Positions 24,946-59,905 of a stretch of 64,000 bases of DNA are shown piece after piece (the first letter of the stretch is position 1; every line of letters starts with the position of its first letter). The DNA comes from Erythrobacter sp. SCSIO 43205 (GTDB taxonomy: Bacteria; Pseudomonadota; Alphaproteobacteria; Sphingomonadales; Sphingomonadaceae). The position numbers and the translations under genes were made by a program. The notes beneath the pieces are model-generated. The model did not search any database. It was not told the DNA's origin and was given only the letters and a program-made list of their open reading frames with translations. The stretch spans positions 930,001-994,000 of the forward strand of contig NZ_CP063202.1 in NCBI RefSeq assembly GCF_019904235.1, given 5' to 3'.

Positions 24946-25155
24946 CTAGATCAACCCGTCATAGATGATCACGAAAACGACAAACGCAGTGAATAGAAGA
25001 CCGAAAAGGACCATTCCCGCCTTTCCCCAAGGATCAGCCCAAGTTTTCTTCCAAGTGTAAGATGTCAGGCGGTTCTCAGCGATAGCGCGATCAATTTCAC
25101 GAAAGCCTTCCCAATCGCTATTACTCTCTGGCGGAGTTTTGTCGGAATTGCTCAT
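24946..25155 (-). CDS. Small single-helix membrane protein abutting traG
   Basis: A 69-residue protein of unknown family with a hydrophilic N-terminus (SNSDKTPPESNSDWEGFREID), a middle rich in Trp and Lys, and one C-terminal membrane helix (MVLFGLLFTAFVVFVIIYDGLI). It is convergent with traG and the two stop codons touch. In F-like plasmids the genes after traG are surface and entry exclusion genes (traS, traT); location makes a related role thinkable, but there is no visible similarity. The frame, composition and membrane topology support a real gene. Confidence 0.6.
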   Translation of the reverse strand: MSNSDKTPPESNSDWEGFREIDRAIAENRLTSYTWKKTWADPWGKAGMVLFGLLFTAFVVFVIIYDGLI

Positions 25156-25248
25156 CGGTCAGTGTCCTTTCGCCAGAAGCCAAAGCCTCCTCTGCTCTCA
25201 ATGAAGAACATAGACGAAGTTGTGCAAAGCTCAAAATTTGACCGAGGG

Positions 25249-25497
25249 TCAACTGCGGTCAGATTGATCATGCGGATACCCCGGATTTTCTTCGCAATGT
25301 TTGTGGCCAATCGAAGGCTGCTTGCTATCCGACATATTCAAGTAAGCGTTGAGCCGCTCAATGGTGCGGCGGCGTGGTCTGCGCCCCATTCTCAAGTCGA
25401 GTACGAACCGGGGATCGCCCACTGCACGCCTGCCAAATCGGGTGGCTGAGATATGATTGTCTTTCAGGTGTTTTTCGATCCTGTCCAGCAGCTTCAT
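25249..25497 (-). CDS. Small HTH-like DNA-binding protein
   Basis: An 82-residue protein counted from ATG 25497 (MKLLDRIEKHLKDNHIS), chosen over a codon nine residues upstream because it starts the recognisable fold. The core ATRFGRRAVGDPRFVLDLRMGRRPRRRTIERLNAYL has the length and spacing of a short HTH: a first helix, then the recognition helix with several Arg. The C-terminal tail is polar. It is divergent from the S24 repressor gene and shares its 109-bp upstream region, so the two probably regulate each other or share an operator. It could be a partner or antagonist of the S24 protein. Confidence 0.65.
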   Translation of the reverse strand: MKLLDRIEKHLKDNHISATRFGRRAVGDPRFVLDLRMGRRPRRRTIERLNAYLNMSDSKQPSIGHKHCEENPGYPHDQSDRS

Positions 25498-25606
25498 CTG
25501 TCCTCGCTCCGACTCGCAAATCACTTGTGTTCTTTGTTTGTTCCTACTAGGGTCATGCCTATTGGTCTAGGATAAATCCTACGATCAATTTCGAAGGGCT
25601 AAAGAA
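25498..25606. promoter_or_regulatory. Divergent promoter region with CCTA/TAGG half-sites
   Basis: Between the HTH-like and S24 genes lie CCTACTAGG (25543-25551), CCTA-N6-TAGG (25558-25571) and TCCTAC (25577-25582). These overlapping half-sites look like repressor operators and resemble the GTAGGA units at the tra promoter region (7082-7100, 7316-7326). Start codons are at 25497 (minus) and 25607 (plus). Confidence 0.45.
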
Positions 25607-26242
25607 ATGGAACATGTCAGAGAGGAACTCGAGCGGCTGATCACCCGTGGTGGTTACGGCTATGCAGCGATATCAAGGCTGCTGGGGCGAAATCCAAGTT
25701 ACATTCAGCAGTTCATCAAACGCGGGTCGCCTCGCAATCTTGATGAGAAAGATCGCAAGACCCTTGCCAGCTTCTTTGGTGTCGATGAGCAAAGGCTGGG
25801 CGGCCCTGCTCAAACGCCAATGGACGGAATGATAGAAGTTCCTGTCCTGAATATTGATGCGTCAGCTGGCTTTGGTGCGCTTGCTTCCAATGAGACAAGC
25901 TACACTCGCTTTGGATTTGACGAAAAATGGCTTCGACGATTGACTGGAGCCAAGAGCGCAAGCCTCTCAATCGTGAGTGTATTGGGAGACTCAATGGAAC
26001 CCACGCTTAGCGATGGAGATGAGGTGCTCGTGGATGCTTCTGATCATGGCGCAAGGCTACGGGACGGCATCTATGTGCTGCGCTCTGATGATGCGCTCGT
26101 CGTGAAGCGGATTGCCCTCAAACCAGGGGCAAGACAGATCACGATTTCAAGCGACAATCCTGCCTATCCGAGTTGGAACGATGTGGATCGGGGCGAGGTC
26201 GATGTGATTGGCCGAGTGATCTGGTTTGGACGGGCGTTGTAG
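25607..26242 (+). CDS. LexA/CI-like repressor with S24 peptidase domain
   Basis: A 211-residue protein with an N-terminal HTH (ISRLLGRNPSYIQQFIKRGSPRNL at about 22-46) and a C-terminal S24 domain. The catalytic dyad is visible as S129 in GDSMEPTLSDGDEVLVD and K167 in DALVVKRIAL. A candidate Ala-Gly self-cleavage bond lies in DASAGFGA at about 87-88. Proteins of this form repress mobile-element genes and are inactivated by RecA-stimulated self-cleavage during DNA damage, so conjugation or EPS genes could respond to SOS stress. AAGGG lies eight bases before the ATG. The gene stands alone on the plus strand. Confidence 0.9.
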   Translation: MEHVREELERLITRGGYGYAAISRLLGRNPSYIQQFIKRGSPRNLDEKDRKTLASFFGVDEQRLGGPAQTPMDGMIEVPVLNIDASAGFGALASNETSYTRFGFDEKWLRRLTGAKSASLSIVSVLGDSMEPTLSDGDEVLVDASDHGARLRDGIYVLRSDDALVVKRIALKPGARQITISSDNPAYPSWNDVDRGEVDVIGRVIWFGRAL

Positions 26243-26790
26243 AACCAGGGGATCCAAAGGGGCAGATAGCTTTGGGCTATCCAACTACTCGCGACTGCAA
26301 GTCAATTCTTGATCACAATGATCTTTTGGAAAGCCTTGCGAGGTTTGTGGGCGGATGCATCGCCTCGTGCTTCCAGAGATTTGTAGTTTACATGGATGAA
26401 GTTACGACAAGAATCAGGCTGGCATCATCTTGATCTTTGCAAGCTGGTGAATGCCTCGAAGTATTCGCCGTAAAATGAGTCATCGAATTTCAAAGCGAAA
26501 CGAGCCGGGCGGTGCGCCAACAGTCGCCCGGCTCTAAGCGTGATAGCTTCATGGAAGAGTACATCAGTAAGTGCGCGTCATCAACATGAGACATTTTTGC
26601 GAAAACTGCGCACATCACCCTTGCCGCTGAAAGAATTCATTGGCGTCAGCCAACCACAAAAAGCGCACGATAAGAAAGTGTCTATTTGAACCAGGCCAGG
26701 CCCAAGTGCAGTTTTGAACCTTCGACTGAGCGAAGGCCAAGGCCTTGTGACCCCTGCGCTATTGCAAACTTCAGATAGAGAAATACCAGC
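26243..26790. other. Intergenic region with GC-rich hairpin
   Basis: No gene was recognised in these 548 bp. A perfect 10-bp inverted repeat (GAGCCGGGCG at 26502-26511, CGCCCGGCTC at 26525-26534, 13-base loop) may end transcription of the S24 gene, although no T tract follows and it is 260 bp downstream. Open frames present have no family features. Confidence 0.45.
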
Positions 26791-27087
26791 TTAGACATCG
26801 GAAGAGGCTTTGGGCGCAACCTCGTAGAACACACGCAGCATTTCTTTCAGCAAGGTAACAAGGGCGACACCATCTTCTGAAAGCACAAAAGACTGACCTC
26901 GCTTCGAGAATATTTTGATACCGCTAAGATCTTCGAGCCTGGTGATGGTTAGGCTTACAGATGGGACAGTTCGTCCGAACGCTTCTGCTGTTTGAGTGAG
27001 GGACTTCAATTCGGCAAGAGTGACGATCATCTCCATTTTTCGGATCGTGAGTGTCTCTTTCAATCGATTGAGGTTTTGGATGTCCAT
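26791..27087 (-). CDS. LysR-type HTH-only protein
   Basis: A 98-residue protein that contains only the DNA-binding domain of a LysR-family regulator: LKETLTIRKMEMIVTLAELKSLTQTAEAFGRTVPSVSLTITRLEDLSGIKIFSKRG matches the winged HTH (about residues 8-66), then the dimerisation helix begins (ALVTLLKEMLRVFYEV) and the protein stops. Typical LysR proteins have about 300 residues, so the effector-binding domain is missing. The frame has a normal stop, and no downstream remnant was found on the same strand. It could be a truncated gene or a genuine short regulator. Its gene target is unknown. Confidence 0.65.
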   Translation of the reverse strand: MDIQNLNRLKETLTIRKMEMIVTLAELKSLTQTAEAFGRTVPSVSLTITRLEDLSGIKIFSKRGQSFVLSEDGVALVTLLKEMLRVFYEVAPKASSDV

Positions 27088-27560
27088 ATTGTCCGCACTG
27101 AGTTGAAGATTGCCAGACTTGGCAAAGGTTGCCGGTTATCATGAATAAAAACCCTTTGCCAAGGATCGACAGATCACAAGGGCTTGTATGAGCATGCGTT
27201 TTTGGAGGTGCGGCGATTAAACTGGATTGGTCAAGACTGCCTGAAGCATAATCTACCATATGCGCCGCATGGTATGCTCAATGTTTCAATAAGGCCTTTG
27301 GTGCCGCCAGGATGCAGATTTTGGCGCTTAGGGGGAGAAAAACGGGTGCGCAATGATGATCTTGGCTACCATCTCCAGGAGCAAAGGAGTGTTCTGTCGC
27401 GCTTAATATTGGGGGCTAGAGAAAGTTTGGCTTCACCATGTCAATGCGAACCGATGCCAAGCTGATTGGTAGCGCCAACAAGATTAGTATCGCAGGCGCA
27501 AAGCAATGAGAAAGCGGTGTCGAGCGCCTTGGTTATTAAGCCACCTCCTCGTCCCTTGTC
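27088..27560. other. Intergenic region without recognisable gene
   Basis: These 473 bp contain the upstream region of the LysR-type gene and the downstream end of the Excalibur gene operon. A 93-codon frame at 27184-27465 (plus) has no family features and no ribosome site. I see no conserved structure. Confidence 0.35.
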
Positions 27561-27890
27561 CTATTCACAAGCTCTGCCATCACCGTCGCGATCAAGGTGA
27601 GAGCCGTATCCCGGCTGGCCGCGCAATAGAGGAGTGCGGCCTGCCTGGCGCGCTGCAGCACAATTGGGATAGTATACGTTTCCGCTAGGGGTCTGGCTTA
27701 CTGCTCGACTTGGATGTGACCCTCGGTGACAATGACGACCACCGTTTTTTCGATCATTGTGGCATCCGTCTGCGGCAAGCCCTCCGGGATGGGCTTGCGC
27801 CGGGCTGGAGCTGCCATCGGGCACAAAGCAGATGCTCGTCACCGCAAACACAATGACTGGAGACAACCAAACCCGGCGCGGTATCAGCAT
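27561..27890 (-). CDS. Secreted protein with Excalibur calcium-binding domain
   Basis: A 109-residue protein started at ATG 27890, giving a signal peptide (LIPRRVWLSPVIVFAVTSICFVP) and an overlap with the upstream nuclease gene. A His/Cys-rich YHYH-like part (HPGGLAADGCHNDRKNGGRHCHRG) is followed by the Excalibur domain: YYPNCAAARQAGRTPLLRGQPGY, then the calcium loop DRDGDGRACE at the very end. Excalibur domains are often linked to secreted nucleases. The start lies in the last codons of the SNase-like gene (ATGCTGA), so translation is coupled and the two proteins probably act together outside the cytoplasm. Confidence 0.85.
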   Translation of the reverse strand: MLIPRRVWLSPVIVFAVTSICFVPDGSSSPAQAHPGGLAADGCHNDRKNGGRHCHRGSHPSRAVSQTPSGNVYYPNCAAARQAGRTPLLRGQPGYGSHLDRDGDGRACE

Positions 27891-28312
27891 CGGTGATCGG
27901 TCCAATACTTTTCCCATCGAAGCGCCCAGCCACCAGCCACCATGGCACAATTGATGTCTCCGCCTTTGGGTGACGTACACCACGCCGCTGTCCTATTGCC
28001 GCCCGCTGATCCATCAGAAAGGCACCGCATTGCGGGGCCGGAGACTGTAATGTGGCCATGCGGGCCCACGCCAGTGGGCGAGCCGATCAGCCGTACGAGA
28101 GCATCGCGAGCGTCAAGGGCAGATGCTGCGGGACATGGATGACCATCGCTGCAGGTTCCGTCCATTTCTCGGGCGGCAATGCCGGACAGGCGCACCCTTG
28201 GGCCCTCCTCGCACCAGATTGGTCCATCGCCATCCCAAACTGCTACCGGCGTACAGTTGAAAGTTTGACCCGCCGGGATGACGCTGGCTGCAAGCAATAG
28301 GAGAAAGGACAT
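27884..28312 (-). CDS. SNase-like secreted nuclease homologue
   Basis: A 142-residue protein with a signal peptide (SFLLLLAASVIPAGQ) and a compact OB-fold of the staphylococcal-nuclease type: VAVWDGDGPIWCEEGPRVRLSGIAAREMDG matches the V.DGDT...G..VRL.GIDA.E core, followed by AASALDARDALVRLI and a short C-terminal part. The thermonuclease Thr and some catalytic Arg/Glu positions differ from the classic motif (DGDGP for DGDT; RLSGIAARE for RLIGIDAPE), so activity is not certain. GAAGG precedes the ATG. It lies between the DUF6961-like and Excalibur genes in one transcription unit. Confidence 0.8.
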   Translation of the reverse strand: MSFLLLLAASVIPAGQTFNCTPVAVWDGDGPIWCEEGPRVRLSGIAAREMDGTCSDGHPCPAASALDARDALVRLIGSPTGVGPHGHITVSGPAMRCLSDGSAGGNRTAAWCTSPKGGDINCAMVAGGWALRWEKYWTDHRC

Positions 28313-28316
28313 GGGG

Positions 28317-28526
28317 TTAATTCACCTTCGACGAGCCGATGCGCTCATTTGTAATCTGATCAAATTTCTCGCCGACTTGAGCCCAGAGTTTCGCCCCTTG
28401 ATCTTCGCCTTGCGCAAGCAACTGGTCCTGCCTCTGGGCTATGTAAAACCAACCCTCATGACCGAAATTCTTTTCCACCCCTAAGGCCATCGCCCAAATT
28501 TCCTTTTGTCGGTTCATCCCAGTCAT
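28317..28526 (-). CDS. DUF6961-like small protein
   Basis: A 69-residue product from ATG 28526 (the frame continues upstream but this start overlaps the preceding stop as ATGA). The sequence MNRQKEIWAMALGVEKNFGHEGWFYIAQRQDQLLAQGEDQGAKLWAQVGEKFDQI fits the DUF6961 group of short sphingomonad proteins, with W-x2-AL-x-VEK, FIA.R and W..V..K..QL pattern. Function is unknown; these proteins are usually encoded near mobile or accessory genes. The stop is four bases before the SNase-like gene. Confidence 0.65.
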   Translation of the reverse strand: MTGMNRQKEIWAMALGVEKNFGHEGWFYIAQRQDQLLAQGEDQGAKLWAQVGEKFDQITNERIGSSKVN

Positions 28527-28657
28527 GCAGACAACCAGGAAATGATGAACATCAGAATGGCAATGAGAGGCAATATATAAAGGATCAATGCCCAAAACGA
28601 GAATTCGACAATAATGCCATCGTCCGTTTCGTCTTTCTTACTGGGCCATAACTTCAT
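28523..28657 (-). CDS. Very small membrane protein
   Basis: A 44-residue product starting at ATG 28657: a charged N-terminus (KLWPSKKDETDDG) and one long hydrophobic helix (FSFWALILYILPLIAILMFIISWLSA). It is the first gene of a four-gene leftward unit (small membrane protein, DUF6961-like, SNase-like, Excalibur), joined to the next gene by an ATGA overlap, which is the main support for its reality. Function is unknown; a role in anchoring or secretion of the downstream products is only a guess. Confidence 0.55.
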   Translation of the reverse strand: MKLWPSKKDETDDGIIVEFSFWALILYILPLIAILMFIISWLSA

Positions 28658-29048
28658 GAAACTGCGTCCTTGTACGACGAGTATCACTTTACCCGTAGAC
28701 CCGCAATCCAGGTGATGATGGCTTGGCGAGGCCAATGAGGCTTGGCTCGTATGGCGACTACTCAATGCCCCCTGTGGGTACGTCCCAAGCTAAACCATCA
28801 AAGTCAATGGCCTCGCCGCGAGGAATCAGACTGCCTCACATTGCCTCTCGTGTTCAGTGATGAAAGCCTCCCTTGGAGCTGAACAAGCAGTTGAACAAGC
28901 AATTCTCAAGTATGCGTATGGAGCGGTTCAATCCCAAAATGTGAACGAAAAAACTTATCTCTATGGGGTGCAATAGGCGCGCGAGCATGACGCTCTTAAA
29001 GCCAATATGTAGTTTTGCCTAAGAGCGGTTTGTGGCATTCTTGACGCC
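28658..29048. other. Divergent upstream region with inverted repeat
   Basis: This 391-bp region separates the leftward nuclease unit from the rightward LuxR-like unit. An 8-bp inverted repeat (CGCTCTTA 28991-28998, TAAGAGCG 29020-29027) lies 22 bp before the start of the LuxR-like gene, suitable for an operator. No gene was recognised. Confidence 0.5.
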
Positions 29049-29708
29049 ATGCCAGACGCTAGATCACAAACTCACTCATCACCCAAAGAAGCGCTCGAAG
29101 CGCTCAAGCGCGACCTTACCCGTTCAAAAGCGCAAGAGCTTCTCGATCGCCTAACTGTCCGCGAGACCGAAGCGATGGTCGCTCTTGCGCATTTTCGTTC
29201 CCACAAGGAGGTGGCTCGAGAAATGGGGGTGGGGCCTTCGCGCATTGGTCAATATCTGACTTCGGTCAAAAACAAGATGAAGGTCCCAAAGCCAAAAGAT
29301 GCAATTACCATCTTCATAATCGCACGTTCCTTGTGCGAAATGCCGGTCTATAAAAACCACTACCTTCAGGATGCTGCGTTTCTGATCGATAGAACGGTTG
29401 CGGACCACTCAGTCCAAAAGGTTTTTACGACCTTCCAGAAGCCAGAGTTCAAGCAATGGCTGAAAGATTTGGATTCGAGGGGGCCGTGGGCTCTCAGTGC
29501 AAGGTTTGGCCCATGGTGGATGATACTGGCAGGTGTTGTCCTTGCTATTCTGATTGCGGCAACAGTTGCGATCGGGTTTATGGCAAAAAACCAGATGGAC
29601 TTAGCTTACGCTGTTGAGCCTCCTGCAACCTATGGAGATCAAAGCAATGACAAATCCTTCAACCGCAATGATAGCGGATTTCAGCAGCGCCCTGCACGAG
29701 CGTCTTGA
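29049..29708 (+). CDS. Membrane-anchored LuxR-like DNA-binding protein
   Basis: A 219-residue protein with an HTH of the LuxR/sigma-70 region 4 type at about 34-92 (LTVRETEAMVALAHFRSHKEVAREMGVGPSRIGQYLTSVKNKMKV) near its N-terminus, a helical linker and one strong membrane helix at about 154-178 (GPWWMILAGVVLAILIAATVAIGF) with a short polar tail that would lie in the periplasm. The layout puts the DNA-binding domain in the cytoplasm tethered to the membrane. No receiver domain is present. The 3' end overlaps the next gene by 62 bp. It begins a three-gene unit and may receive a signal from the membrane protein encoded third. Targets are unknown. Confidence 0.75.
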   Translation: MPDARSQTHSSPKEALEALKRDLTRSKAQELLDRLTVRETEAMVALAHFRSHKEVAREMGVGPSRIGQYLTSVKNKMKVPKPKDAITIFIIARSLCEMPVYKNHYLQDAAFLIDRTVADHSVQKVFTTFQKPEFKQWLKDLDSRGPWALSARFGPWWMILAGVVLAILIAATVAIGFMAKNQMDLAYAVEPPATYGDQSNDKSFNRNDSGFQQRPARAS

Positions 29709-29985
29709 CGATCATGATCGCTCGATCCTTGCCGACCTTGAGCTGATGAAATCGGCGCTCACTATCAGAGTGGCAACCGGCCTTAAAGGCGCACAAAGTC
29801 AGCTCATGCTCAAACGCCTGGAACAGCAGATCGCGTCAGGCATCGAGGCGCGCGAGAAGCACATTCGCACGCACGATATGCTGCACAAGCTCGCAGAAAC
29901 AATGGACTGGCCAATGGGATGTCCAGACGACGCACGCGCTAAGATCGACGCGATGCCCGAGCCGAAAGTGTCCGCTGACGCATGA
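29647..29985 (+). CDS. Small helical protein of the membrane-regulator unit
   Basis: A 112-residue protein from ATG 29647, chosen for the GGAG located ten bases upstream and a compact product. It is predicted helical (about 10-100: SALHERLDDHDRSILADLELMKSALTIRVATGLKGAQSQLMLKRLEQQ) with no signal peptide or membrane helix and no family I know. It overlaps the LuxR-like gene by 62 bp and the next gene by four bases (ATGA), which indicates coordinated expression. A cytoplasmic adaptor between the membrane protein and the regulator would fit, but that is speculation. Confidence 0.6.
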   Translation: MTNPSTAMIADFSSALHERLDDHDRSILADLELMKSALTIRVATGLKGAQSQLMLKRLEQQIASGIEAREKHIRTHDMLHKLAETMDWPMGCPDDARAKIDAMPEPKVSADA

Positions 29986-30497
29986 GTGAGGCAGACTTAC
30001 TGGACGCTAGGATCTGGCCCGTTTTTGCAATTGCGCTGGGCCTGCTCGGCATGTCATTTACCCTTGGCGGTAAGCCTGAACGATGGGGCATTTGTGTCTT
30101 GATATTCATGCTTATCGCCCAAGGAATGATAGTGTCCTTTTTCACGGGCGGGATTTATTTCTCGGATATTGATCCCGCTTCCTTGACCGCAGATGTGGTC
30201 GGCCTAGCTGGCTTCACTGTTATCCTATGTAATGCTCGCCGTCTCTGGCCGATCGCTGCCTTTGCTCTCCAACTCTTGGCTGTCCTAGGCCATTTTCTGC
30301 AGAGTATCTCTGAAATGGTCGCTTACACATATGTGACCTTCAAGAGCTATCCGACAATGTCGATAGTTATCATCGTCGCCATCGCCGCGCTCGCCCACCA
30401 ATGGCGATTGAGAGCGAAAGGCGAAGATCCTGACTGGGTGCCGTATACAGAATACGCAAAGTTCAGGAGAATAGCGCGCGACCTTCAAGAACTTTGA
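29982..30497 (+). CDS. Polytopic membrane protein of the regulator unit
   Basis: A 171-residue protein with about four or five membrane helices (near 12-28, 36-52, 66-82, 88-108 and 122-138) and a hydrophilic C-terminus (HQWRLRAKGEDPDWVPYTEYAKFRRIARDLQEL) likely in the cytoplasm. It is not recognised as a member of a named family. ATGA overlap with the preceding gene marks it as the last member of the three-gene unit. Together the three genes look like a small sensing unit: membrane protein, helical mediator, membrane-anchored DNA-binding protein. Confidence 0.65.
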   Translation: MSEADLLDARIWPVFAIALGLLGMSFTLGGKPERWGICVLIFMLIAQGMIVSFFTGGIYFSDIDPASLTADVVGLAGFTVILCNARRLWPIAAFALQLLAVLGHFLQSISEMVAYTYVTFKSYPTMSIVIIVAIAALAHQWRLRAKGEDPDWVPYTEYAKFRRIARDLQEL

Positions 30498-30546
30498 CAC
30501 TTCGAGCTTCAATCAAAGGCGCTTACCCATTTCTGTAGCGACAATT

Positions 30547-30598
30547 CTATAAGCCTATGATTTCATTTTTGTATTGACAATTTTTATAGGCCTATAAA
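30547..30598 (+). promoter_or_regulatory. Candidate promoter with paired TATA(A/G)GCCTAT palindromes
   Basis: CTATAAGCCTATGA at 30547-30560 and the perfect 16-bp palindrome TTTATAGGCCTATAAA at 30583-30598 are two versions of one sequence. Between them lies TTGACA (30574-30579), a good -35 hexamer, though the -10 distance (TATAAA at 30593-30598) is shorter than usual. They lie about 90 bp upstream of the gene at 30690. Confidence 0.5.
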
Positions 30599-30655
30599 TC
30601 GCCTTTTGTTCTCTACTGAAATTGGAAAGTTGTAACTCCTCGTAGCATCGAGATC

Positions 30656-30685
30656 ATGACCCATAGCAATCATCTATTGGGTCAT
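30656..30685 (+). promoter_or_regulatory. Leader hairpin just before the 30690 start
   Basis: ATGACCCA (30656-30663) pairs with TGGGTCAT (30678-30685); the pairing can extend inward with TAG/CTA around a bulged A. The right arm ends five bases before the ATG and carries the only GGG that could serve as ribosome site, so the stem may mask it. Confidence 0.5.
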
Positions 30686-30689
30686 TGTC

Positions 30690-30980
30690 ATGCGATTTAT
30701 TGTTCACAAGGTAAGCGTAGATCCCGTTTCTGGAAAAGATGTGCTGGTCCCGCTGAATGAGGGGGGCACTCCATTTGACTTGGAGCAACTTAAGTCCGCG
30801 CTAGGTCGATTGTATCTTGAGAATTGGAAAACGGCCTCGCCTGACGAAGGCGTGATCATTTCTCCCGTTGATTCGGCAGATGCTCAGGATGGGAAGGAAA
30901 CTAGCGTGGCATTGAGCTACAGCGAGATTGCCGAGAAGTTTCAGTTTCTCGAAGAGCACGGGCTGAGAAAAATGATCTAA
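30690..30980 (+). CDS. Conserved-looking hypothetical protein
   Basis: A 96-residue soluble protein without a signal peptide or membrane helix and with no family I recognise. The N-terminus reads RFIVHKVSVDPVSGKDVLVPLNEGG and is followed by acidic and polar stretches and a helical C-terminus (SEIAEKFQFLEEHGLRKMI). It has its own upstream region with two related palindromes and a leader hairpin, suggesting tight control. The next 390 bp are without a gene, so it is probably monocistronic. Confidence 0.5.
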   Translation: MRFIVHKVSVDPVSGKDVLVPLNEGGTPFDLEQLKSALGRLYLENWKTASPDEGVIISPVDSADAQDGKETSVALSYSEIAEKFQFLEEHGLRKMI

Positions 30981-31373
30981 AACTCGAGAATTCCATCAGA
31001 CGAAAATTTTAGTCGTCAGTGGCTACGGCTTCAGGCGAAGTGAATATTGGGACGAGCTGTGCGCGCGGGAGCCGGTTTCAAAGAAACTGTTGCAGGTTAA
31101 AGCGCGTAAGAGGAGACGGAATCCAAGACGCCGCTATTCATCGGTTTGCGCATCGCTTGACGTCGAGACCCATCTTTTAAGGCCGGGCTTGATGTCTCAA
31201 TGCGAGGATCGCTCTTTAGGTCTCGGAGTAGGGGTAAGCGGGCAACTTCTGCTCTTTGCAATTCCCTGATACAATAATATGATTTGCATCAGGATACGAT
31301 ACGTTACGCTCTTTTTGCGAGGCGCCTTCGTGCATCTTGATCATAACCAATATCGTCAATTGGCAACGGGGTT
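30981..31373. other. Intergenic region without recognisable gene
   Basis: These 393 bp appear more A+T-rich than the tra region and hold no convincing frame on either strand. No terminator with a T tract was seen after the 30690 gene. Confidence 0.35.
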
Positions 31374-31727
31374 CTATGCCGCACTTCGCGCTCTGAAACT
31401 GCGATACAGTCCAAACAACATGAGAGTGCTGCCTGCGCCAATGATGTCCGCGAGCCAGTCCATAAAGCTTGGTTTCCGCCCCAGGCTTGGGATTGATTGC
31501 ACGAGCTCAATGAGCCCCCCGAAAACGGCAAGGCCAACAAATACTCTTGTCAGACTAAGTTGAGGAAATGCTAAAGCTGCAAGAGTCGCGAGCACGACAA
31601 AGGCTAGAGCATGTAATTGTTTGTCATTCAGAGCGTCGCTTAACGGTGCTGGGTTAGGCAAGCTCGCTGCTAGAAAAGCGAGCGCAAGCGCAAACCAAAA
31701 GGCGATTTGAAACAATTTGGTGAGCAT
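31374..31727 (-). CDS. VanZ-like membrane protein
   Basis: A 117-residue protein with four hydrophobic helices and the VanZ pattern: NDKQLHALAFVVLATLAALAFP (K..H...F..L) followed by GGLIELVQSIPSLGRKPSFMDWLADIIGAGST (E..Q...P.R...D...N..G). VanZ-like proteins are membrane proteins best known from teicoplanin resistance in vanA clusters, but in alphaproteobacteria short versions are common next to polysaccharide genes with no known function. It is monocistronic and leftward, near the start of the EPS region. Confidence 0.85.
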   Translation of the reverse strand: MLTKLFQIAFWFALALAFLAASLPNPAPLSDALNDKQLHALAFVVLATLAALAFPQLSLTRVFVGLAVFGGLIELVQSIPSLGRKPSFMDWLADIIGAGSTLMLFGLYRSFRARSAA

Positions 31728-32250
31728 CTAAGATGGGAAGTCCGCTATCTGACGCGACCACGTTTCGAGCCGACACCGTAGATTTTTAGCAAATCTACAT
31801 CGAGCGATCTATCAGGTTCAACTAGCCAAGCAACCTCTCAGATTGAGTTGACAGCTTTTGTGCTGAGAGCTGCCATCATGCCATAACACAGGTTAGGGTT
31901 GCCCCTCAATCATAAGCCAATTGGATGAGAAGCTAGGACCTCTATACTGCGTCAATGCATGTGTTGTGTTGCTGCCTTAACCGCTTTGATTTCTGGCGAT
32001 GAGCTTGTGGCTAAGGGCTCGTCAAGCTTGGGCTGTCCCTCTCGACAGCGCGGGAACTTGTCCTTTAGATAACGCAGAGAAGTTGAGGTTGAAACGATCG
32101 ATGCGGCGCGTAGTGATCAAAGCCAAGGAACTACATGGTTTTGAAATCTTCAGTCCGCTTTGCACGTGTAATCGCTTCCATTAAACCGATCATGCCCATG
32201 GCTTGCTCACACTTGAAAGTTGTCAAATTGAGGATGATTCATTCTTGGCA
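31728..32250. other. Intergenic region without recognisable gene
   Basis: This 523-bp region holds the VanZ-like gene's upstream side and the region downstream of the NusG paralogue. A 61-codon frame at 31999-32184 has no supporting signal. No clear repeat or terminator was seen. Confidence 0.35.
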
Positions 32251-32745: not shown

Positions 32746-32934
32746 TATTCCCCTAACGCGCTCCACATTACGAACGCTTTGCACCAATCTGAAACTGCGG
32801 CATCAAAATGCCCGATGATCGCTCCAGAATGGTTGCATTTATCCGCAAATCATCTAGCGTTCAATGTTGAACATGATCTTCAGGTTGTTTTCAAGTTCGC
32901 CTCTATCCACCTTCTCGTTCGCTTTTCGAGGAGT

Positions 32935-32942: not shown

Positions 32943-32943
32943 C

Positions 32944-49212: not shown

Positions 49213-49261
49213 TCACAGTTGATATGTTGAAGTTTTACGCAACCCTTCTGATGGAAAATAA

Positions 49262-52602: not shown

Positions 52603-54785
52603 ATATTCCAAGTGCAGGAAGAAGCGGGCAGTTGGCATCCGAATTGGTTTCTCGTGATCGCATTGAGCGCGATGATGCGGGTTATATTCAAGAAGATGAT
52701 GCCTTCTTCGCGTTGGACCTGGAGCGCTACTGGCTCGAAGTTCGCGTTTTAAAGTTTTGGCTTCTGGGGATTTTTGTCCTCTGCCTTCTTGGGGCTGTGG
52801 TCGCAACGCTGCTTGCGACCCCTCAGTATGCGGCGAGCTCAAGGATTGAGGTGTCTCAGATTTCAGCAAATATTACAGATATCGACCCGCTTGAAGCGGT
52901 CGGCAATGTGTCCGAATTGCAATATCTCAACACACAATATGAGCTGCTTGAATCGCGCTTTATGGCCGAGCGCGTCACCAGTGCAGGAAACCTTGCGCGC
53001 GATGACGAGTTTCGCTCGGCTTTTGATATTGGTGAAGGCGAGGAGTTTGATGAGGGCGACGTAGAGCAGATCTTGCAGGATAGCCTCACTATCGAGGGGA
53101 TCACGCAGTCTAGTCTCGTAGATATTCAATTCACCACTCCGTCCGCTAATCTCTCTGCGCGCCTTGCAAATCTCTGGGCCGATGAATTCATTGCGGCGAA
53201 CTACGAAAAGCGTTTTGGGGCAAATATTGAAGCGCGCGAATTTTTGAGCGACCAAATAGAAGAGCTGCGCGAAGTTCTTGCTCGCTCGGAGGCGGAGCTT
53301 GTCGAATATGCCAATGCCAATGAGATCTTGATTATCGAGCCGCGCGGGGGCGATGACGGTCAGCCCGCTACCCAATCGCTTGCTGCCACTGATCTTGAAG
53401 CTCTCAATGCAGCTTTGGCACAAGCGGTTACCGACCGGATTGAGGCACAGGCGATCGTTGCCGCAGGCGATCTATCTCAAAAGCAGAAGAACCTTCAGAT
53501 TACCGCCGAGTTGGCGAAGGCCAAATCTGAACTTTCCAATCTCCAAGAGACTTTCGGCGACGAGTTCTCTGCCATCCGGGAAAAGAAGGCAGAAATCGCT
53601 GCCTTACAGGCAGCTCTTGATAGCGAGACCTCTTCGCTGCGGGGTGAGGCACAAGCCGCGCTGCGTTCTGCAAGCTTGAGGGAGCGTGAGCTCAGGGCAG
53701 AACTTCAAAGGTCAAAATCCCAGTTTCTCGGGCAACAGACCCAGGGTATTCAATATGGGATCCTCTCACGAGAAGTTGAGACCAACAGGGCGCTTTATGA
53801 TGCGCTGCTTCAGCGTTTCAAGGAGTTGGAAGCATCAGGTGCTGGCCAGAACAATATCAAACTTATTGATGCCGCCAGCCCAGACAATCGTCCGGTTTCC
53901 CCATCGCTCGTTCAAAATATAGCGATTGGCATAGTGCTGGCGGCAGTCCTGGCTGCCGCATTAGTCTATCTGCGCGTATTGCTTAGCCAAACGCTTCGTT
54001 CACCTGAGGATGTGCAAAGCCGGATTGGTCTTCCTTTGCTCGGATCAATTCCATCGGCGAGCAATGAAGAAGTTCTGGAGGAGCTCGGACAGGAAAGTTC
54101 AGAAGTCAGCGAAGCATATCGCTCGCTTCGCTCAAACCTTGCCTTCCTTACAACTGATGGCGCGCCCAAAGTTCTTATGGTAACCTCGACCGCGCCAGCA
54201 GAAGGCAAATCAATTTCTGCTATCGCGCTTGCAGGCAGTTTTGCCAAGTTTGGGAAAAAGACCCTGCTGATCGATGCCGATTTACGCAATTCAAAGGTCA
54301 CTCAAACCTTGTCGCTTGGGACAAATGTCGGCGATGGACTTGCTGGATTGCTTACTTCTCCCGGCCGCGCGACTAAAGACGGCATTGTGGAGGTATCTGA
54401 GTTTGGCTTTGACCTTCTGCCGATTGGCCGGAAGATCCCAAATCCTGTTGATCTGCTTGCCAGCGGCAGGCTTTCAGAAATCGTCAGGGAAGCAGGCGAA
54501 ATCTATGATCAGATCGTTATAGACAGCGCTCCTGTTCTAGCGCTCGCCGACGCGATCGAAACAAGCAGAGCTGCTGATGGCGTTCTCTATGTGATAGAAT
54601 ATGACCGGATCAAGGCTAAGGCTGTTAAGGCCTCGATCGACAGACTGCTCGGCTCTCAAGCGACAGTATTCGGGGCTATCCTGACCAAACTCGATCAACG
54701 CGCAGCAGAATATGGCTATGGATACGGCTATGGTTATGGCTATGGATATGGCTACGGCGAAGGGCGCGAAAAATCAGGAAATTGA
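52599..54785 (+). CDS. wzc: Wzc-like tyrosine autokinase and chain-length regulator
   Basis: A 728-residue inner-membrane protein. A Wzz domain spans two membrane helices (near 50-72 and 440-460) with a long periplasmic coiled-coil part. The cytoplasmic C-terminal BY-kinase has Walker A TAPAEGKS (about 533-540), Walker A' LLIDADLRNSK (about 558-568) and Walker B IVIDSAPVLALAD (about 639-651). The end carries a Tyr cluster, eight Tyr-Gly repeats (54711-54758), the usual autophosphorylation site. It controls export and chain length with Wza. The order wza, wzc fits a GumB/GumC-like unit. Confidence 0.93.
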   Translation: MNIPSAGRSGQLASELVSRDRIERDDAGYIQEDDAFFALDLERYWLEVRVLKFWLLGIFVLCLLGAVVATLLATPQYAASSRIEVSQISANITDIDPLEAVGNVSELQYLNTQYELLESRFMAERVTSAGNLARDDEFRSAFDIGEGEEFDEGDVEQILQDSLTIEGITQSSLVDIQFTTPSANLSARLANLWADEFIAANYEKRFGANIEAREFLSDQIEELREVLARSEAELVEYANANEILIIEPRGGDDGQPATQSLAATDLEALNAALAQAVTDRIEAQAIVAAGDLSQKQKNLQITAELAKAKSELSNLQETFGDEFSAIREKKAEIAALQAALDSETSSLRGEAQAALRSASLRERELRAELQRSKSQFLGQQTQGIQYGILSREVETNRALYDALLQRFKELEASGAGQNNIKLIDAASPDNRPVSPSLVQNIAIGIVLAAVLAAALVYLRVLLSQTLRSPEDVQSRIGLPLLGSIPSASNEEVLEELGQESSEVSEAYRSLRSNLAFLTTDGAPKVLMVTSTAPAEGKSISAIALAGSFAKFGKKTLLIDADLRNSKVTQTLSLGTNVGDGLAGLLTSPGRATKDGIVEVSEFGFDLLPIGRKIPNPVDLLASGRLSEIVREAGEIYDQIVIDSAPVLALADAIETSRAADGVLYVIEYDRIKAKAVKASIDRLLGSQATVFGAILTKLDQRAAEYGYGYGYGYGYGYGYGEGREKSGN
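54711..54758 (+). repeat. Eight tandem TAYGGN hexamers encoding the Tyr-Gly tail
   Basis: TAT/TAC followed by GGN occurs eight times in a row at the end of wzc. The Tyr residues are the likely phosphorylation sites of the autokinase. Slippage in this 6-bp repeat would change Tyr number by steps of one without a frameshift. Confidence 0.85.
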
Positions 54786-55005
54786 CGGCGGTTGGCCTGA
54801 TAATGAGAGCTCGGCTCCCTTAAGCATTAGGCGGCATGATAGTCCAATTTGAATGGACTTAGTGGTGTTTCGCTTTTTGTAAACTCGCTATGTAATGGTG
54901 CAAAGATGCACATTGTATCCATGGCCGGCTGCGTAAATCACCCTTGCATTAAGGGACAATACTGATAGCTCTTATTGCGGTGCAGCATGATCGGGGTTAG
55001 GCGCA

Positions 55006-56298
55006 ATGCATGGTAGTTTCAGCACATTTGATGCCTCAAAAGCGATGAATCTGACTTCAACAACAACGCTTCAGAGATATCGAACCCAAGCTCCGCTTAT
55101 CTTGCTCTCCGCTGCCGGCTTGCAGGTTTGCATGGCCTATGCTGTTCGTCAAAGTCTGGCTCCAGGCGACTATGCATCGATCTTGCTTGCTCTTCTGGCT
55201 AACACGGCGTGCCTGCTCATTTTCCGCAGGATGCGGCATTATCCCGGAAACGCGAATGCGGCGAGCCTGGCTCCCAGCTTTGTTATTGGGTGGGGCCTTG
55301 TTTTTGCTGCAATTACCTTTTTCCGCTTGCCATATAGTGCACTCATTCTTGGGGTCGGGGCCGTTTCTGCGTATGCCCTCACCCTTGCATTCAGTGTGTT
55401 GATCAGGCGTCCAGCAAGCGATCCATTTTTGGTCGTCCCAAGTGCTGCTGTCAGCTCTACCCTCAAAGAACTTGGTCCCTTCGGATACAAGGTTTGCCAC
55501 GATGCAGACCAATTGCTGAATGGACGAGGACCAATCATAGCGGACTTACGAGCTGACATCTCCCCTGACATTGAAAAAGCGCTTGTTCAAGCAACGCTTG
55601 ATGGGCGGCGTGTCTTCCATATCAAGCAGATCATCGAATCTTTGACGGGGCGCGTCCAGATTGATCACCTCAGCGAGAATGCCCTTGGCACACTTGCTCC
55701 TAATGAGTCCTACGCGTTTGTGAAATCTGTCGCAGAGCGTGTGATCGCTGCCATACTCCTCATTGTGACATTACCCATATTGGCGGCCGCGTGCCTGGCT
55801 ATCAAACTGGACTCGCCAGGCCCAGCCCTGTTCCGACAAACGCGCGTTGGTTATCGCGGGAAGCCCTTCACAATTTTAAAATTGCGCACCATGCGCACGG
55901 CTGAAGGCCCTGCCAGCAGACAGAGCGATGTCACTCAAGAGAATGATCCGCGCATAACACGTATCGGGAGCTTTTTGAGAGGCAGCCGGATCGATGAGTT
56001 GCCCCAGCTCATCAATATTATTCGCGGAGAAATGAGCTTTATCGGCCCACGTCCGGAGACCGAGGCCCTCTCAAAGTGGTACGAAGAGCAACTCGATTTT
56101 TATCCCTACCGCCATGTCATTCTTCCCGGCATCACGGGCTGGGCTCAGGTCCGGCAGGGCCACGTTGCCTCGCCTGCAGAGGTCTATAAGAAGCTCCAAT
56201 ACGACTTCTATTACATCAAGAATTATTCGTTCTGGCTCGACATCTTCGTGGCCCTTGAGACTGTAAAGGTTATCCTCCTTCGTCTGGGTGCCAAATAG
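55006..56298 (+). CDS. Undecaprenyl-phosphate glycosylphosphotransferase
   Basis: A 430-residue polyprenyl glycosylphosphotransferase (WbaP/GumD/ExoY class). Four or five N-terminal helices (up to about 140) and a middle domain (PASDPFLVVPSAAVSSTLKELGPFGYKV) lead to the catalytic part: KSVAERVIAAILLIVTLPILAAACLAIKLDSPGPALFRQTRVGYRGKPFTILKLRTM, then GSFLRGSRIDELPQLINIIRGEMSFIGPRPE and PGITGWAQVRQG. It starts the repeat unit by placing a sugar-1-phosphate (glucose or galactose) on the lipid carrier. It is 220 bp after wzc. Whether the sugar is Glc or Gal cannot be told. Confidence 0.94.
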   Translation: MHGSFSTFDASKAMNLTSTTTLQRYRTQAPLILLSAAGLQVCMAYAVRQSLAPGDYASILLALLANTACLLIFRRMRHYPGNANAASLAPSFVIGWGLVFAAITFFRLPYSALILGVGAVSAYALTLAFSVLIRRPASDPFLVVPSAAVSSTLKELGPFGYKVCHDADQLLNGRGPIIADLRADISPDIEKALVQATLDGRRVFHIKQIIESLTGRVQIDHLSENALGTLAPNESYAFVKSVAERVIAAILLIVTLPILAAACLAIKLDSPGPALFRQTRVGYRGKPFTILKLRTMRTAEGPASRQSDVTQENDPRITRIGSFLRGSRIDELPQLINIIRGEMSFIGPRPETEALSKWYEEQLDFYPYRHVILPGITGWAQVRQGHVASPAEVYKKLQYDFYYIKNYSFWLDIFVALETVKVILLRLGAK

Positions 56299-56589
56299 TC
56301 TGCTTACGCGATGCCGCAGGCCGTAAGTTGACGGACCCCTTGGGTTGTCCTTGGGTGATCGCTTACAACGACAAAGACGCGGAACGTGTGCTCGCGGCTT
56401 GCGCAGCCTTGCTCGACCCAGCCCTCGTTTGATAAGCGGCTCCCGGCAATACCCTGATCCGGTTCGGGACCACCAAACTGAATAGTCGGGCTCTGGGCTT
56501 GCCGACTACCTCAGTGCCAAAAACAATAAGTCAGGTTTTCCAGGCTAGAGCCTTTTTAAGCCTGCGCCTCGAATAGAGTGAGTTGGATC

Positions 56590-56736
56590 TCAGGCTAGAA
56601 GACCATACAACCCCCAGACCACGCTTCCAGCCAAGAGCACCAGAATAAAGTCGATTTCCCACCAACTGCCATCCTTGGCTTCTTCTTTGCGAAGACCAAG
56701 GCGGCTAGCAAGCCAGCTGCGAGCCCTTTTGATCAT
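56590..56736 (-). CDS. Small membrane protein, leftward
   Basis: A 48-residue product from ATG 56736: a basic N-terminus (IKRARSWLASRLGLRKEEAKDGSWWEI) followed by one membrane helix (DFILVLLAGSVVWGLYGLLA). It was found by reading the gap between the glycosylphosphotransferase and the TPR-like gene. GAAAGG lies about a dozen bases upstream. Amphipathic plus transmembrane layout and normal codon use support a real gene. Function is unknown. Confidence 0.5.
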   Translation of the reverse strand: MIKRARSWLASRLGLRKEEAKDGSWWEIDFILVLLAGSVVWGLYGLLA

Positions 56737-56900
56737 TTGTAAGGGGCCTTTCGACTTCCTGAATTGTCCGGCTGCCGGACTGCCTTTGTCTATCAGAGAC
56801 AGAAATGACGCATACTATTTTTCGCGGCTAGTGAAAACATGACGAATAGCGGGCATGCTGCGCTGGTATCAGCGGTGAGTACGTCTTATTGCGCTGGGTC

Positions 56901-58100
56901 ATGGCACAAACAACAACACACTCGTGGAACCTGCCCCGCTTGGCTGTCTCTTGCATCCTTTGCTTGGCGATAGCAACGATCCTTGGATATCAATCTTTTA
57001 CTGCAATCCTTTTGCGCGTCCAACCAGAAAATGTTGTCAATGCGAGCGTCCGTAAAGGACATGCCATGGAGCGGGTTGCCTATGCTCAGTTGCGCGAAAA
57101 CATTCAGGATCCAGCTGAAACGCAGGGCGCTGCCCAATCAGTGCGTGAGCTGGCGTTATCATCCTTTCGCAGCGAGCCGCTCGTGCCCAAGTCATGGGCT
57201 ATTCTTGCGCTTTCGGCTGATGAAGGCAGAGAACGCAATGCTGTTCTCGAACCTGCTCTAAAGCTCAATCAGCGGGAGATGAGCCTTCAGACAGCAGCGC
57301 TTTCTCAAGCGATCGAAGACGAGAGTTTGTCGGGCGCTGCATCGGCAATTGATGCGATTTTGCGCGTCAGGCCGCAGCGATCTCAGGAACTTTTTCCTCT
57401 TTTGCTTCAAGCGATGGCACAGCCTGAGGCAGCAGGCGAATTCCTTCAGATCCTGGATTTGACCGCGCCATGGCAGGAGCGTTTCCTGCTGCTTGCCGCA
57501 GGCAATGCTGAAGCTCGCCCGACACTGGCACTCATGCATAAAAGGCTGGGATTTGATAATGTTGATTTCAATCGCCGGCTTATCGGGGGGCTAGCAGGGC
57601 AAGGGGAGCTGACCGCCGCGCGAGAGATCTATCAAAGAGTTTCAGCAAAGGAGGAGCGTGTCTCGACCGCGGGCAGCGCTATGAGTTGGACGGATACATT
57701 TCCGCCCTTTGACTGGTATCTGGCATCATCTTCAGACATGCGCGCCGAGCCATCCTCGTCTTTCAATAGCGTTGATGTTTATGTGCGCTCAGGCCACGGA
57801 GGCGATGTAGCGCGAAAGACGCTTGATCGAAGAGACTTGTCCAATTCTGGCCGCGTGAGCGTACGATCGTCACGCTCGCTCAGAGCTGGCAATCTGGTTC
57901 TTAATCTCACCTGTCCGGGAACACAGGCTCCGGTTCTTTCTCAAGACTTGGAAGAAGGGTTGAACCAGCTGGCGATTGAACCTCAGCTTATCGATTGTTC
58001 AGATCCTACAATAGTGTTTCGCGCAAGGGCATTTCGCGGAGAACCTGACTTGCGCCTTACCCTTTCCGACTTCTCCATAGCGACGTCGCGCAGCAGATAG
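56901..58100 (+). CDS. EPS-associated TPR-like membrane-anchored protein
   Basis: A 399-residue protein from ATG 56901 (TTG 56889 also possible). One N-terminal membrane helix (LAVSCILCLAIATILGYQSF) is followed by a helical periplasmic region (about 45-240) with the rhythm of TPR/Sel1 repeats (KSWAILALSADEG, LQTAALSQAIEDESLSGAASAIDAIL, FLLLAAGNAEARPTLALMHKRLGFD) and a beta-rich C-terminal domain. I know no specific family. It is encoded directly before the second polymerase/ligase gene, which suggests that the two work together in chain polymerisation or transfer. Confidence 0.7.
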   Translation: MAQTTTHSWNLPRLAVSCILCLAIATILGYQSFTAILLRVQPENVVNASVRKGHAMERVAYAQLRENIQDPAETQGAAQSVRELALSSFRSEPLVPKSWAILALSADEGRERNAVLEPALKLNQREMSLQTAALSQAIEDESLSGAASAIDAILRVRPQRSQELFPLLLQAMAQPEAAGEFLQILDLTAPWQERFLLLAAGNAEARPTLALMHKRLGFDNVDFNRRLIGGLAGQGELTAAREIYQRVSAKEERVSTAGSAMSWTDTFPPFDWYLASSSDMRAEPSSSFNSVDVYVRSGHGGDVARKTLDRRDLSNSGRVSVRSSRSLRAGNLVLNLTCPGTQAPVLSQDLEEGLNQLAIEPQLIDCSDPTIVFRARAFRGEPDLRLTLSDFSIATSRSR

Positions 58101-58178
58101 TGAATAGGTTTGGGTGCAAAACTTGCGCCCACTGGCTGTGCCATACGCCAAATTTTTCCTCACGTTATAGGTCAATAA

Positions 58179-59612
58179 ATGTCATCCAAACCGCAAGAAT
58201 TGAGGCAGCGAAAGAAAGTGACTCCTGTGCCTATCGCTGCCTATGCATGGCTTGCTGCTTTTTGCTTTCCGCTTATCCTCCTTGGTGGCAGCTCCCAGAT
58301 CGCGATGGTTCAAACGACCATAATGTGGCCAATGGCGGCTCTGTTCCTAGGACCAGTATTCTATCTCGGATCGAGAGAGGCCTTCGTGCCTGGACGCACT
58401 TTGTTGTTGCTCCTCGCAGGGTTAGCGCTTTTGCTGGCTGTGCAGGCGGTTCCTTTACCTTCAGGTTTGTGGCAAGCCTTGCCGGGCCGTGCGGACCTTA
58501 TCGAACTTGAGAATGCAGTCGGGCTTCAGGGCGTGTGGCGCCCTATATCGTGGGTGCCGTCACGCACGCTTGATGCTCTGTTTAGCCTCATCGTTCCGGC
58601 TACAGCCTTGTTACTGGCTCTCTCGCTCAAGATATCGGCAAAAAGGCTTTTCAATGTCATCATTTTTGTGGCGCTCGCCGATGTTGCTCTGACGATCGTG
58701 CAGGTGTTGTCTGGCTATCAATCAGAATTTTATCTCTACTCCGTTAGTTCGGGGAGGGCTGATGGAATTTTCGGAAATGAGAACCACTCGGGTGTCTTTT
58801 CGTCTTTGGCCATGCTCATATGTGGCTATCGAAGTTCCCAGTTGATGGGAAAACACAAAGACCGTTCCCGGGCCATTTTCTTTGCCGCTTGCTTTTTCAT
58901 ATTTCTGGTGAGTGCGATTATTGGAGGTTCGCGCGCTGCTCTTGCCAGCAGCTTGCTTGCGACGCTCATTGTGAGCGCCATGTTCGTCAGTCATTTTTTC
59001 CTCGATCCAACTGCAAACCTCAAGCGTAGTGGCCGCAGCACGAAGCGGGAGGTGGTCGCCAGCCAACTTCAAGCAAGAGCGGCAGCGGCAATTGCTTTGG
59101 TCTCGGTATTGGTCACGGTTGGTCTGTTTATCTGGTTGGATCGCAGCCCCAGTTTTGATGGCATCCTATCGCAAGACAGCTTTGAGGACCTGCGCTGGGA
59201 GCTCGGACCAATTCTCTGGGAGATGATCAAGGAAAACTGGCTTTTGGGAATTGGTGTCGGCGCATTTGCCGAGTTTTACCATATTTATGAGCCCACAGCT
59301 TTGCTGATGCCAGCCTTTGTTAATCAGGCGCACAATGATTGGGCGCAATTTGTCCTGGAGGCAGGCGTAGGCGGCATCGCACTTTTGCTCGCGCTTCTCG
59401 TTTGGATCGCAAAGAGGATCGCTCTTCTTTGGCAACATGGAAAGAACGATAGAGCTGCGATCTTTTTCTGGCTCGGCGTCTTTGCAATCGTGGGTCTCGC
59501 ATCCATCGTGGACTATCCTCTTCGCACCGCGATCTATCAGGTCACAATGGTCTGGCTTTTGCTCTGTCTGGCGCTGGAAACCCATGCACTGGCGCGAGAT
59601 GCAGCGCGCTGA
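58179..59612 (+). CDS. O-antigen polymerase/ligase-like protein (second copy)
   Basis: A 477-residue polytopic protein with about ten to twelve helices and a Wzy_C/O-antigen ligase signature: AVQAVPLPSGLWQALPGR, GIFGNENHSGVFSSLAML, GGSRAALASSLLATLIVSAMF, and LGIGVGAFAEFYHIYEPTALLMPAFVNQAHNDWAQFVLEAGVGGIALLLALL (the conserved G.G...F....P......AHND..Q...E.G.......L region). It may polymerise repeat units or attach the polymer to another acceptor. With the first Wzy at 37370 it gives the cluster two enzymes of this class. It is 78 bp after the TPR-like gene. Confidence 0.88.
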   Translation: MSSKPQELRQRKKVTPVPIAAYAWLAAFCFPLILLGGSSQIAMVQTTIMWPMAALFLGPVFYLGSREAFVPGRTLLLLLAGLALLLAVQAVPLPSGLWQALPGRADLIELENAVGLQGVWRPISWVPSRTLDALFSLIVPATALLLALSLKISAKRLFNVIIFVALADVALTIVQVLSGYQSEFYLYSVSSGRADGIFGNENHSGVFSSLAMLICGYRSSQLMGKHKDRSRAIFFAACFFIFLVSAIIGGSRAALASSLLATLIVSAMFVSHFFLDPTANLKRSGRSTKREVVASQLQARAAAAIALVSVLVTVGLFIWLDRSPSFDGILSQDSFEDLRWELGPILWEMIKENWLLGIGVGAFAEFYHIYEPTALLMPAFVNQAHNDWAQFVLEAGVGGIALLLALLVWIAKRIALLWQHGKNDRAAIFFWLGVFAIVGLASIVDYPLRTAIYQVTMVWLLLCLALETHALARDAAR

Positions 59613-59905
59613 TCTTGGTGAAGGAAGATGCAGATGTCCCAAGGCTTCTCGATCCCGGATTTTTCACACCAACCCGTGATTGTCATCGATTGATTCATTT
59701 GTGCTTAACTTCTCGCAGCTATTCAACGCCTTGAGAGTGGACCTCTCGATTGCGTGGTGAGCCGGTCATTGGTCTTGAATGGCTCACCACACTTCCTCCA
59801 ATTCACTTTGCCGGGATGCTCTTGCGTGTACAATTTACCGCAAGCACGCTTGGCCCTGTTTTTGGAAACTGCCTTTGAAAACGGGCGAAGGCTGGATCAG
59901 GTTTG
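59613..59905. other. Boundary region between EPS cluster and traI with hairpin
   Basis: There is no gene in these 293 bp. A perfect 10-bp inverted repeat (GTGGTGAGCC 59754-59763, GGCTCACCAC 59781-59790, 17-base loop) lies between the convergent ends of the polymerase and traI genes. It has no T tract on either strand, so it could be a terminator, a junction sequence or a recombination relic. Confidence 0.5.

Follow-up and report, generated by a model that had tools for sequence, protein, structure and literature searches.

An exopolysaccharide locus as cargo of a probable tRNA-Leu-type conjugative element in Erythrobacter sp. SCSIO 43205, probably stranded by a chromosomal inversion

The window analysed here is a stretch of 64,000 bp from the chromosome of Erythrobacter sp. 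SCSIO 43205 (G000:C1:930001-994000), inside one contig of 3,377,939 bp (99.98% complete), and it carries F-type conjugation (tra) genes together with a Wzx/Wzy-type exopolysaccharide (EPS) locus. It is very likely the middle of a tRNA-Leu(CAG)-type integrative and conjugative element (ICE) of Erythrobacter, whose cargo hotspot took up a Wzx/Wzy allele of a locus found at a chromosomal site in relatives, and which was later stranded by an inversion. This ICE, of about 142 kb plus a displaced end, is called element A, and a second element on the same chromosome is called element B; G000 denotes the strain's own genome and the other G numbers those of relatives, and window positions in kb are converted to contig positions by adding 930. 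The original prediction considered what would follow if the tra genes, the EPS cluster and traI/traD were on one replicon or ICE, and they are indeed on one contig, with tra at 7.2-24.9 kb, EPS at about 32.8-59.6 kb, and traI/traD from 59.9 kb of the window.

A search with TraC covered 199 family genomes, G000 included. Some match was obtained in 145 of them, many of these being remote, and 19 (G000 among them) hold a near full-length TraC of at least 85% identity. Sixteen elements were fetched, and twelve of these are spanned from the gene of an S24-peptidase/HTH regulator to traI, namely A, B, and those of G121, G060, G006, G128, G178, G130, G054, G221, G247, and G234. Among the other four, G162 is without the part beyond traC, G166 and G136 run off their contigs, and the piece fetched from G252 holds neither the S24 gene nor traI. 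All twelve spanned elements exhibit the same order, in which the S24 gene is followed by a cargo gap and then by traI on the opposite strand, facing the S24 gene. Moreover, traG precedes the S24 gene in the eleven elements where that side was fetched (all except G234, where the fetched piece breaks off within the S24 match), and the ten elements in which traD was mapped all have it after traI. In A, the S24 regulator (25607..26242, plus strand), which we take to be of the LexA/CI type, and traI (59906..62815, minus strand; a TrwC-type relaxase/helicase) form the left and right borders of the hotspot. Because the layout is the same in all twelve elements, the EPS genes split nothing; the divided tra region is the usual one for this ICE family, and no tra operon was broken by the EPS genes. 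The 'split' conjugation region of the original prediction is therefore correct as to the position of the EPS genes inside an ICE-type element, but not as to any disruption.

The transfer operon of A (7169..24945, plus strand) encodes a pilin, TraK, TraB, TraC, a signal peptidase, TraU, TrbC, TraN, TraF, TraH, and TraG of the F type (MPF-F), and is collinear with those of B, G121, G128, and G130. Ten open reading frames (ORFs) at 8.6-24.9 kb match NCBIfam F-type transfer models, five above the curated cut-off (TraC, TraU, TrbC, TraN, and a TraF-like protein) and five below it (TraK, TraB, the TraF-type peptidase, TraH, and TraG). The VirB2-pilin match at 7169-7723 is weak (22.3 bits, under the cut-off). 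The TraC of A (850 aa; TIGR02746, above the cut-off) is 96% identical to that of the tRNA-Leu element of G121. Close homologues of TraU, among the best 80 of 584 matches, are found in Qipengyuania, Erythrobacter, Croceicoccus, Aurantiacibacter, Alteriqipengyuania, Pontixanthobacter, and Novosphingobium. Relaxase and coupling protein are both present on A: traI has nearly the same length (969-970 aa) in A, B, G121, G128, and G130, and the ORF of the traD coupling protein (62867..64000, minus strand) runs on to the equivalent of window position 65182. The traN gene (18265..19988, plus strand) is frameshifted, being represented by a 491-aa ORF and a 113-aa ORF in a different frame, while it is unbroken in relatives (573 aa in B, G121, and G130, and 574 aa in G128). 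Besides traN, comparison of the transfer genes with those of relatives revealed no clear break. A plasmid origin was considered and rejected for the tra genes, since the best plasmid TraC among the matches listed reaches 62% identity whereas the large contigs of relatives carry TraC of up to 96%, and for the EPS genes, for which the best-ranked plasmid Wzc is 36% identical.

The cargo hotspot (26243..59905) measures 33.7 kb in A, and 4.2, 6.6, 7.9, 9.3, 10.5, 10.5, 10.5, 10.9, 14.5, 17.6, and 17.6 kb in the eleven other spanned elements. PADLOC was applied (E ≤ 1e-10) to 20 gap proteins from eight of these eleven, and anti-phage matches were obtained for 11 of the 20 proteins, in five of the eight elements. 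They comprise SspA, SspB, and SspC in B, an IetS protein and a remote Avs4-like protein in G128, Hachiman HamB in G060, a Pycsar cyclase with E2 and TIR proteins in G221, and AbiEii with a CBASS-type cyclase in G234. The tested gap proteins of G178, G054, and G121 gave no PADLOC match at this threshold; three G121 gap proteins outside the PADLOC set resemble the Ssp proteins of B (27-34%). Some cargo is shared, by G006 with G128, and by G130 and G247 with G178. When gap ORFs of at least 120 aa from the eleven other elements were compared with those of A, none matched at E ≤ 1e-10, and EPS cargo is found only in A among the twelve.

The EPS locus itself (32779..59612, plus strand) contains phosphotransferase, flippase, polymerase, Wza exporter, and Wzc copolymerase genes together. 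These are wzx (35997-37370; MatE-like, PF01554 at 24.6 bits, just below the cut-off of 24.9), wza (51874-52602; Poly_export, PF02563), wzc (52599-54785; Wzz/GNVR/AAA, PF02706/PF13807), the initiating sugar-phosphate transferase gene (55006-56298; PF02397), and wzy (58179-59612; Wzy_C, PF04932). The locus further encodes a regulator, two FkbM methyltransferases, hexapeptide transferases, glycosyltransferases of families GT2 and GT1, a GDP-mannose dehydratase, and epimerases (gmd/fcl-like). A NodZ/FUT8-like fucosyltransferase gene (42668..43469, plus strand) is apparently broken, lying in two overlapping frames. The original prediction of about 27 kb of EPS and accessory genes between traG and traI is borne out for about 32.8-59.6 kb, but the ORFs searched in the remaining 26.2-32.7 kb (window 26243-32700), which separate the S24 gene from the EPS genes, belong to no polysaccharide families. 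This stretch has a low GC content (0.506), and near 28.1-28.3 kb it has weak DNA similarity of 110-224 bp to three other loci.

In seven relatives of the genus (G241, G121, G041, G247, G252, G218, and G234), polysaccharide loci occupy the same chromosomal position, within flanks that are conserved. The end module of these loci is related to that of the window, with 52-60% identity for Wzc and 58-68% for Wza in all but G218, where it is more distant (34% and 40%, respectively). The repeat-unit block of the window (GT2, GMD-like, GT2, gmd; 43558..47587, plus strand) is collinear with the chromosomal locus of G247, with protein identities of 75%, 91%, 75%, and 87% in that order and DNA identity of 77-79%. 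A decayed tyrosine recombinase gene within the EPS locus (48550..49230, minus strand), together with the stretch that follows it, matches the chromosomal EPS locus of G241 at 77% DNA identity, and its homologue there is an open frame of 311 aa with a Phage_integrase domain. Since an open integrase gene sits in a chromosomal EPS locus, the relic is part of the polysaccharide locus and came with the cargo, and it does not record how the ICE was assembled, as the original prediction had suggested. Of the decayed integrase genes noted there, one is confirmed, and an integrase-family search of G000 listed no other in the window.

The corresponding chromosomal site of G000 is empty. Position 376604 matches G241 1849945 and position 376626 matches G241 1891404, so that the flanks abut and the 41 kb of G241 are absent. 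The same empty junction is found in G221 (1154526/1154552), which is collinear with G000 at 86% over 2.69 kb; in G226 the site holds only about 1.4 kb. EPS and tra genes at one fixed locus in all relatives would have contradicted the original prediction; what is found is that seven relatives keep EPS genes elsewhere, at a site that is empty here. As the junction is common to G000 and G221, the emptiness probably predates their split, and the EPS locus was probably regained later, on the ICE. On this view the lineage would have lost its chromosomal locus, or never have had one, before an ICE brought in the EPS genes, a whole Wzx/Wzy locus having been taken into the hotspot that the S24 gene and traI border. 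The chief alternative is a move within the genome, in which a resident ICE took up the EPS locus of the strain's chromosome and left the site vacant. The clean emptiness of the site, and the allelic relation of cargo and chromosomal locus, which extends to the integrase relic, would both be expected of such a move, but the junction in G221 indicates that the site was probably vacant before G000 and G221 diverged, and the move is considered unlikely.

The ends of element A may be traced as follows. Directly beyond its backbone end at 1043.4 kb there is no integrase, tRNA-Leu, or tRNA-Met, and the next tRNA gene is tRNA-Val, 6 kb on. A 25-bp tRNA-Leu 3' end, found also at tRNA-Leu in G121, G252, and G221, occurs in G000 at 901377 (plus strand) and 3018415 (minus strand). 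The latter copy belongs to a tRNA-Leu gene (3018350-3018436) that is followed by an ORF for a three-domain integrase of 438 aa (3018516-3019832), and this block (3018348-3019783) is 73% identical in nucleotides to blocks at tRNA-Leu in G121 and G252, where the matching element end is tRNA-Leu(CAG). The integrase and tRNA-Leu are therefore about 2.1 Mb away from the copy of the attachment site (att) at 901.4 kb, and the two att copies are inverted relative to each other. An older order is seen in G221, where the counterparts of G000 3001-3018.4 and 901-890 kb are 15.6 kb apart on one contig (C3 510-526.7 and 542.3-547.2), and those of G000 1054-1049.6 kb (with tRNA-Val) and 3020.2-3041 kb are 7.5 kb apart (C5 297-301.4 and 308.9-325). 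Twelve relatives gave matches to both halves of the tRNA-Val locus; in eleven of them the halves are no more than 31 kb apart, and in G210 they are 120 kb apart, as compared with about 1.97 Mb in G000. One inversion of about 2 Mb, with breakpoints at 1043.4-1045.1 and 3019.8-3020.2 kb, would account for both the split synteny and the att positions, and would have cut a complete ICE in two.

Several observations weigh against parts of this interpretation. The passage of the EPS locus by ICE is read from its position, in a single instance among twelve elements. The GC content of the EPS locus is 0.544 versus 0.56-0.58 for the chromosome and 0.61 for the G247 locus, and the best Wzc in other genomes, among the matches listed in a 397-genome search, is 62% identical; by these two values the immediate donor is not one of the genomes sampled. 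The EPS locus is not the strain's sole polysaccharide system, for G000 has two more Poly_export genes, at 2262 and 2891 kb (12 of 12 candidates scored), in unrelated loci where only one of 29 window proteins has a weak match. The window Wzc is the only G000 match listed at E ≤ 1e-60 (2 of 16 first-look candidates scored), and one contig scan with Wzc confirmed no match. The inversion is read from the assembled sequence. Lastly, no shared backbone genes connect the left arm (901.4-936.5 kb) with the element, and this arm has a serine recombinase of its own, so that the att copy at 901.4 kb could stem from another tRNA-Leu element.

That the 901.4-kb att copy and the 3,018-kb integrase both derive from a different tRNA-Leu element, the end of the ICE body having been lost otherwise, is regarded as rather improbable. 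It is in keeping with the left-arm recombinase, with a right-end backbone nearer to the tRNA-Met-type G221 and G247 (92-93% in nucleotides) than to the tRNA-Leu-type G252 (87-90%), and with the tandem integration at tRNA-Leu(CAG) described for two strains in PMC4919336. Against it, TraC is nearest to that of the tRNA-Leu element of G121 (96%), the left arm of 35 kb resembles those of G121 (29 kb) and B (32 kb), and the broken synteny of two tRNA loci requires a breakpoint exactly at both loose ends. An assembly error in place of the inversion is very improbable, even though only the assembly attests the rearrangement, because the contig is single and the 20-kb breakpoint neighbourhoods have little in common: at E ≤ 1 they share a tRNA-Val piece of 55 bp (91%) and five further matches, each of 16-31 bp, and repeats of such length would not lead most assemblies astray. 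Least credible of all is a fixed chromosomal island in which two unrelated insertions set tra and EPS genes side by side without any ICE, for which the lack of an integrase beside the element body, in the window or at 1043.4 kb, might be adduced, but which is contradicted by the layout common to all twelve spanned elements, with cargo in the same gap, and by the integrase, tRNA, and direct repeats of sister element B.

If the ICE was stranded by an inversion as proposed, an integrase acting on the inverted att copies would flip the chromosome and release no circle. Excision and conjugative transfer of A are predicted to be impaired, given the inverted att copies and the frameshifted traN. Element A was probably mobile once, but the self-transmissibility that the original prediction considered probably no longer holds in this strain, the body of A having apparently been parted from the integrase and tRNA-Leu. 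The EPS locus would thus have become a fixed trait of the host, short of a reversal of the inversion or the supply of transfer functions in trans.

Element B was recognised from a region at 1.305 Mb of G000, which is 72-75% similar to a border piece of the window used as query; ORF comparison then revealed the entire element (G000:C1:1243161-1356306). It is an apparently complete ICE of 113 kb, with an integrase adjoining tRNA-Met(CAT), and is bounded by a 17-bp direct repeat at 1243161 and 1356290. Near SSB it has a tandem pair of integrases, and it also encodes an RHS protein and parts of a further type IV secretion system, of the VirB type. Beyond ArdC, the backbone of A continues to a ParB-domain gene, a gene for a 1425-aa AAA/helicase (Strawberry-notch-type), and genes with Toprim and SLT transglycosylase domains, the last of which reaches to 1043.4 kb; in B, the integrase and tRNA-Met(CAT) come after the counterparts of these genes. 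This far backbone, from ParB to the transglycosylase, is common to B, G121, G221, G128, G130, G247, and G252, with the final transglycosylase gene unmatched in the G247 piece, which ended there. A second cargo gap between ArdC and ParB (G000:C1:1004500-1034050) measures about 29.7 kb in A versus 7.1 to about 11 kb in B, G121, and G221. Within it, 1007648-1015249 (pirin, a beta-lactamase-family serine hydrolase, and an NmrA-like protein) is 95% identical to the G247 chromosome at 1572.6-1580.1 kb, with no further copy in G000 among the matches listed (4 of 48 candidates scored), and a fragment of a second tyrosine integrase (1006370-1006813) is 39% identical to an integrase of B.

Other candidates for att sites of A were examined and discarded. 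A 101-bp repeat past ArdC (1006244) is a decayed piece of the ParB-domain gene. A search of 850-1074 kb that tolerated about 1 mismatch in 7 gave no second copy of the first 20-40 bases of tRNA-Val 1049658, the 55-bp partner of which is at 3021.5 kb. Exact repeats of at least 16 bp between the arms amount to one 18-mer and one 16-mer, neither at a tRNA gene. A stretch of 3.6 kb is duplicated in inverted orientation at 91% (1045068-1048660 and 1082147-1085739), the first copy adjoining the inversion breakpoint. The large serine recombinase of the left arm (G000:C1:921376-923262) lies near a HipA gene and may be the sign of a nested element. The tra module is flanked at its pilin end by a conserved backbone ORF (6540..7031, minus strand), which has homologues at the same position in eleven other elements, and nearby, at window 3342-5259, is an IS1595-like transposase (DDE_Tnp_IS1595) with luxR-type regulators on either side.

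Surface-polysaccharide loci are often exchanged between bacteria, but the vehicle is usually obscure. In SPI-7 of Salmonella Typhi, the Vi polysaccharide locus is on an ICE-like island, of which the transfer system, host, and polysaccharide differ from those of A. Element A and its relatives belong to the Erythrobacter tRNA-targeting ICE family published in PMC4919336; according to that report, these ICEs have seven cargo hotspots in a conserved core and the same tRNA targets, with the integrase directly after tRNA-Leu or tRNA-Met, and TraC was compared there over 846 positions (850 aa in A), while A differs from them in being apparently cut by an inversion. The text contains no word beginning with 'polysaccharide' and no occurrence of 'exopolysaccharide'. 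Integration in prfC, the criterion of the SXT/R391 ICE family as given in PMC5217437, is not what is seen here, for the elements B, G121, and G252 have a tRNA-Met or tRNA-Leu gene at their end, and the att copy of A is a tRNA-Leu 3' end. No EPS locus on an ICE of the Erythrobacteraceae is named in the titles or abstract openings of the literature found, and one may yet be in print. The ICE family is thus already known, and what is new is the EPS cargo, the empty chromosomal site, the origin of the relic integrase, and the probable split of an ICE by inversion.

The interest of these findings is in the exchange route, since a conjugative element is seen to carry one EPS allele in a strain whose chromosomal site is vacant, and the integrase gene shared by the two kinds of locus reveals the type of chromosomal locus from which the EPS genes derive. 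In PMC5217437, a polysaccharide cluster on an Alteromonas chromid was proposed as an intermediate in the swapping of a chromosomal cluster, but with no similar cluster to compare, that study drew no conclusion. In the present case an ICE is the carrier, its cargo can be recognised as an allele of a chromosomal locus, and both the matching chromosomal family and the empty site are in evidence. It may be suggested, tentatively, that the ICE family serves as an exchange vehicle for the polysaccharide 'replacement island' of the genus, by which lineages without the chromosomal locus, having lost it, would regain a surface coat, that a coat in the anti-phage slot acts as defence or entry-control cargo, and that the inversion later fixes the coat. 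The arrangement also suggests a route by which a chromosome may domesticate an ICE, in that an inversion between two tRNA-borne elements would retain the cargo and remove excision.

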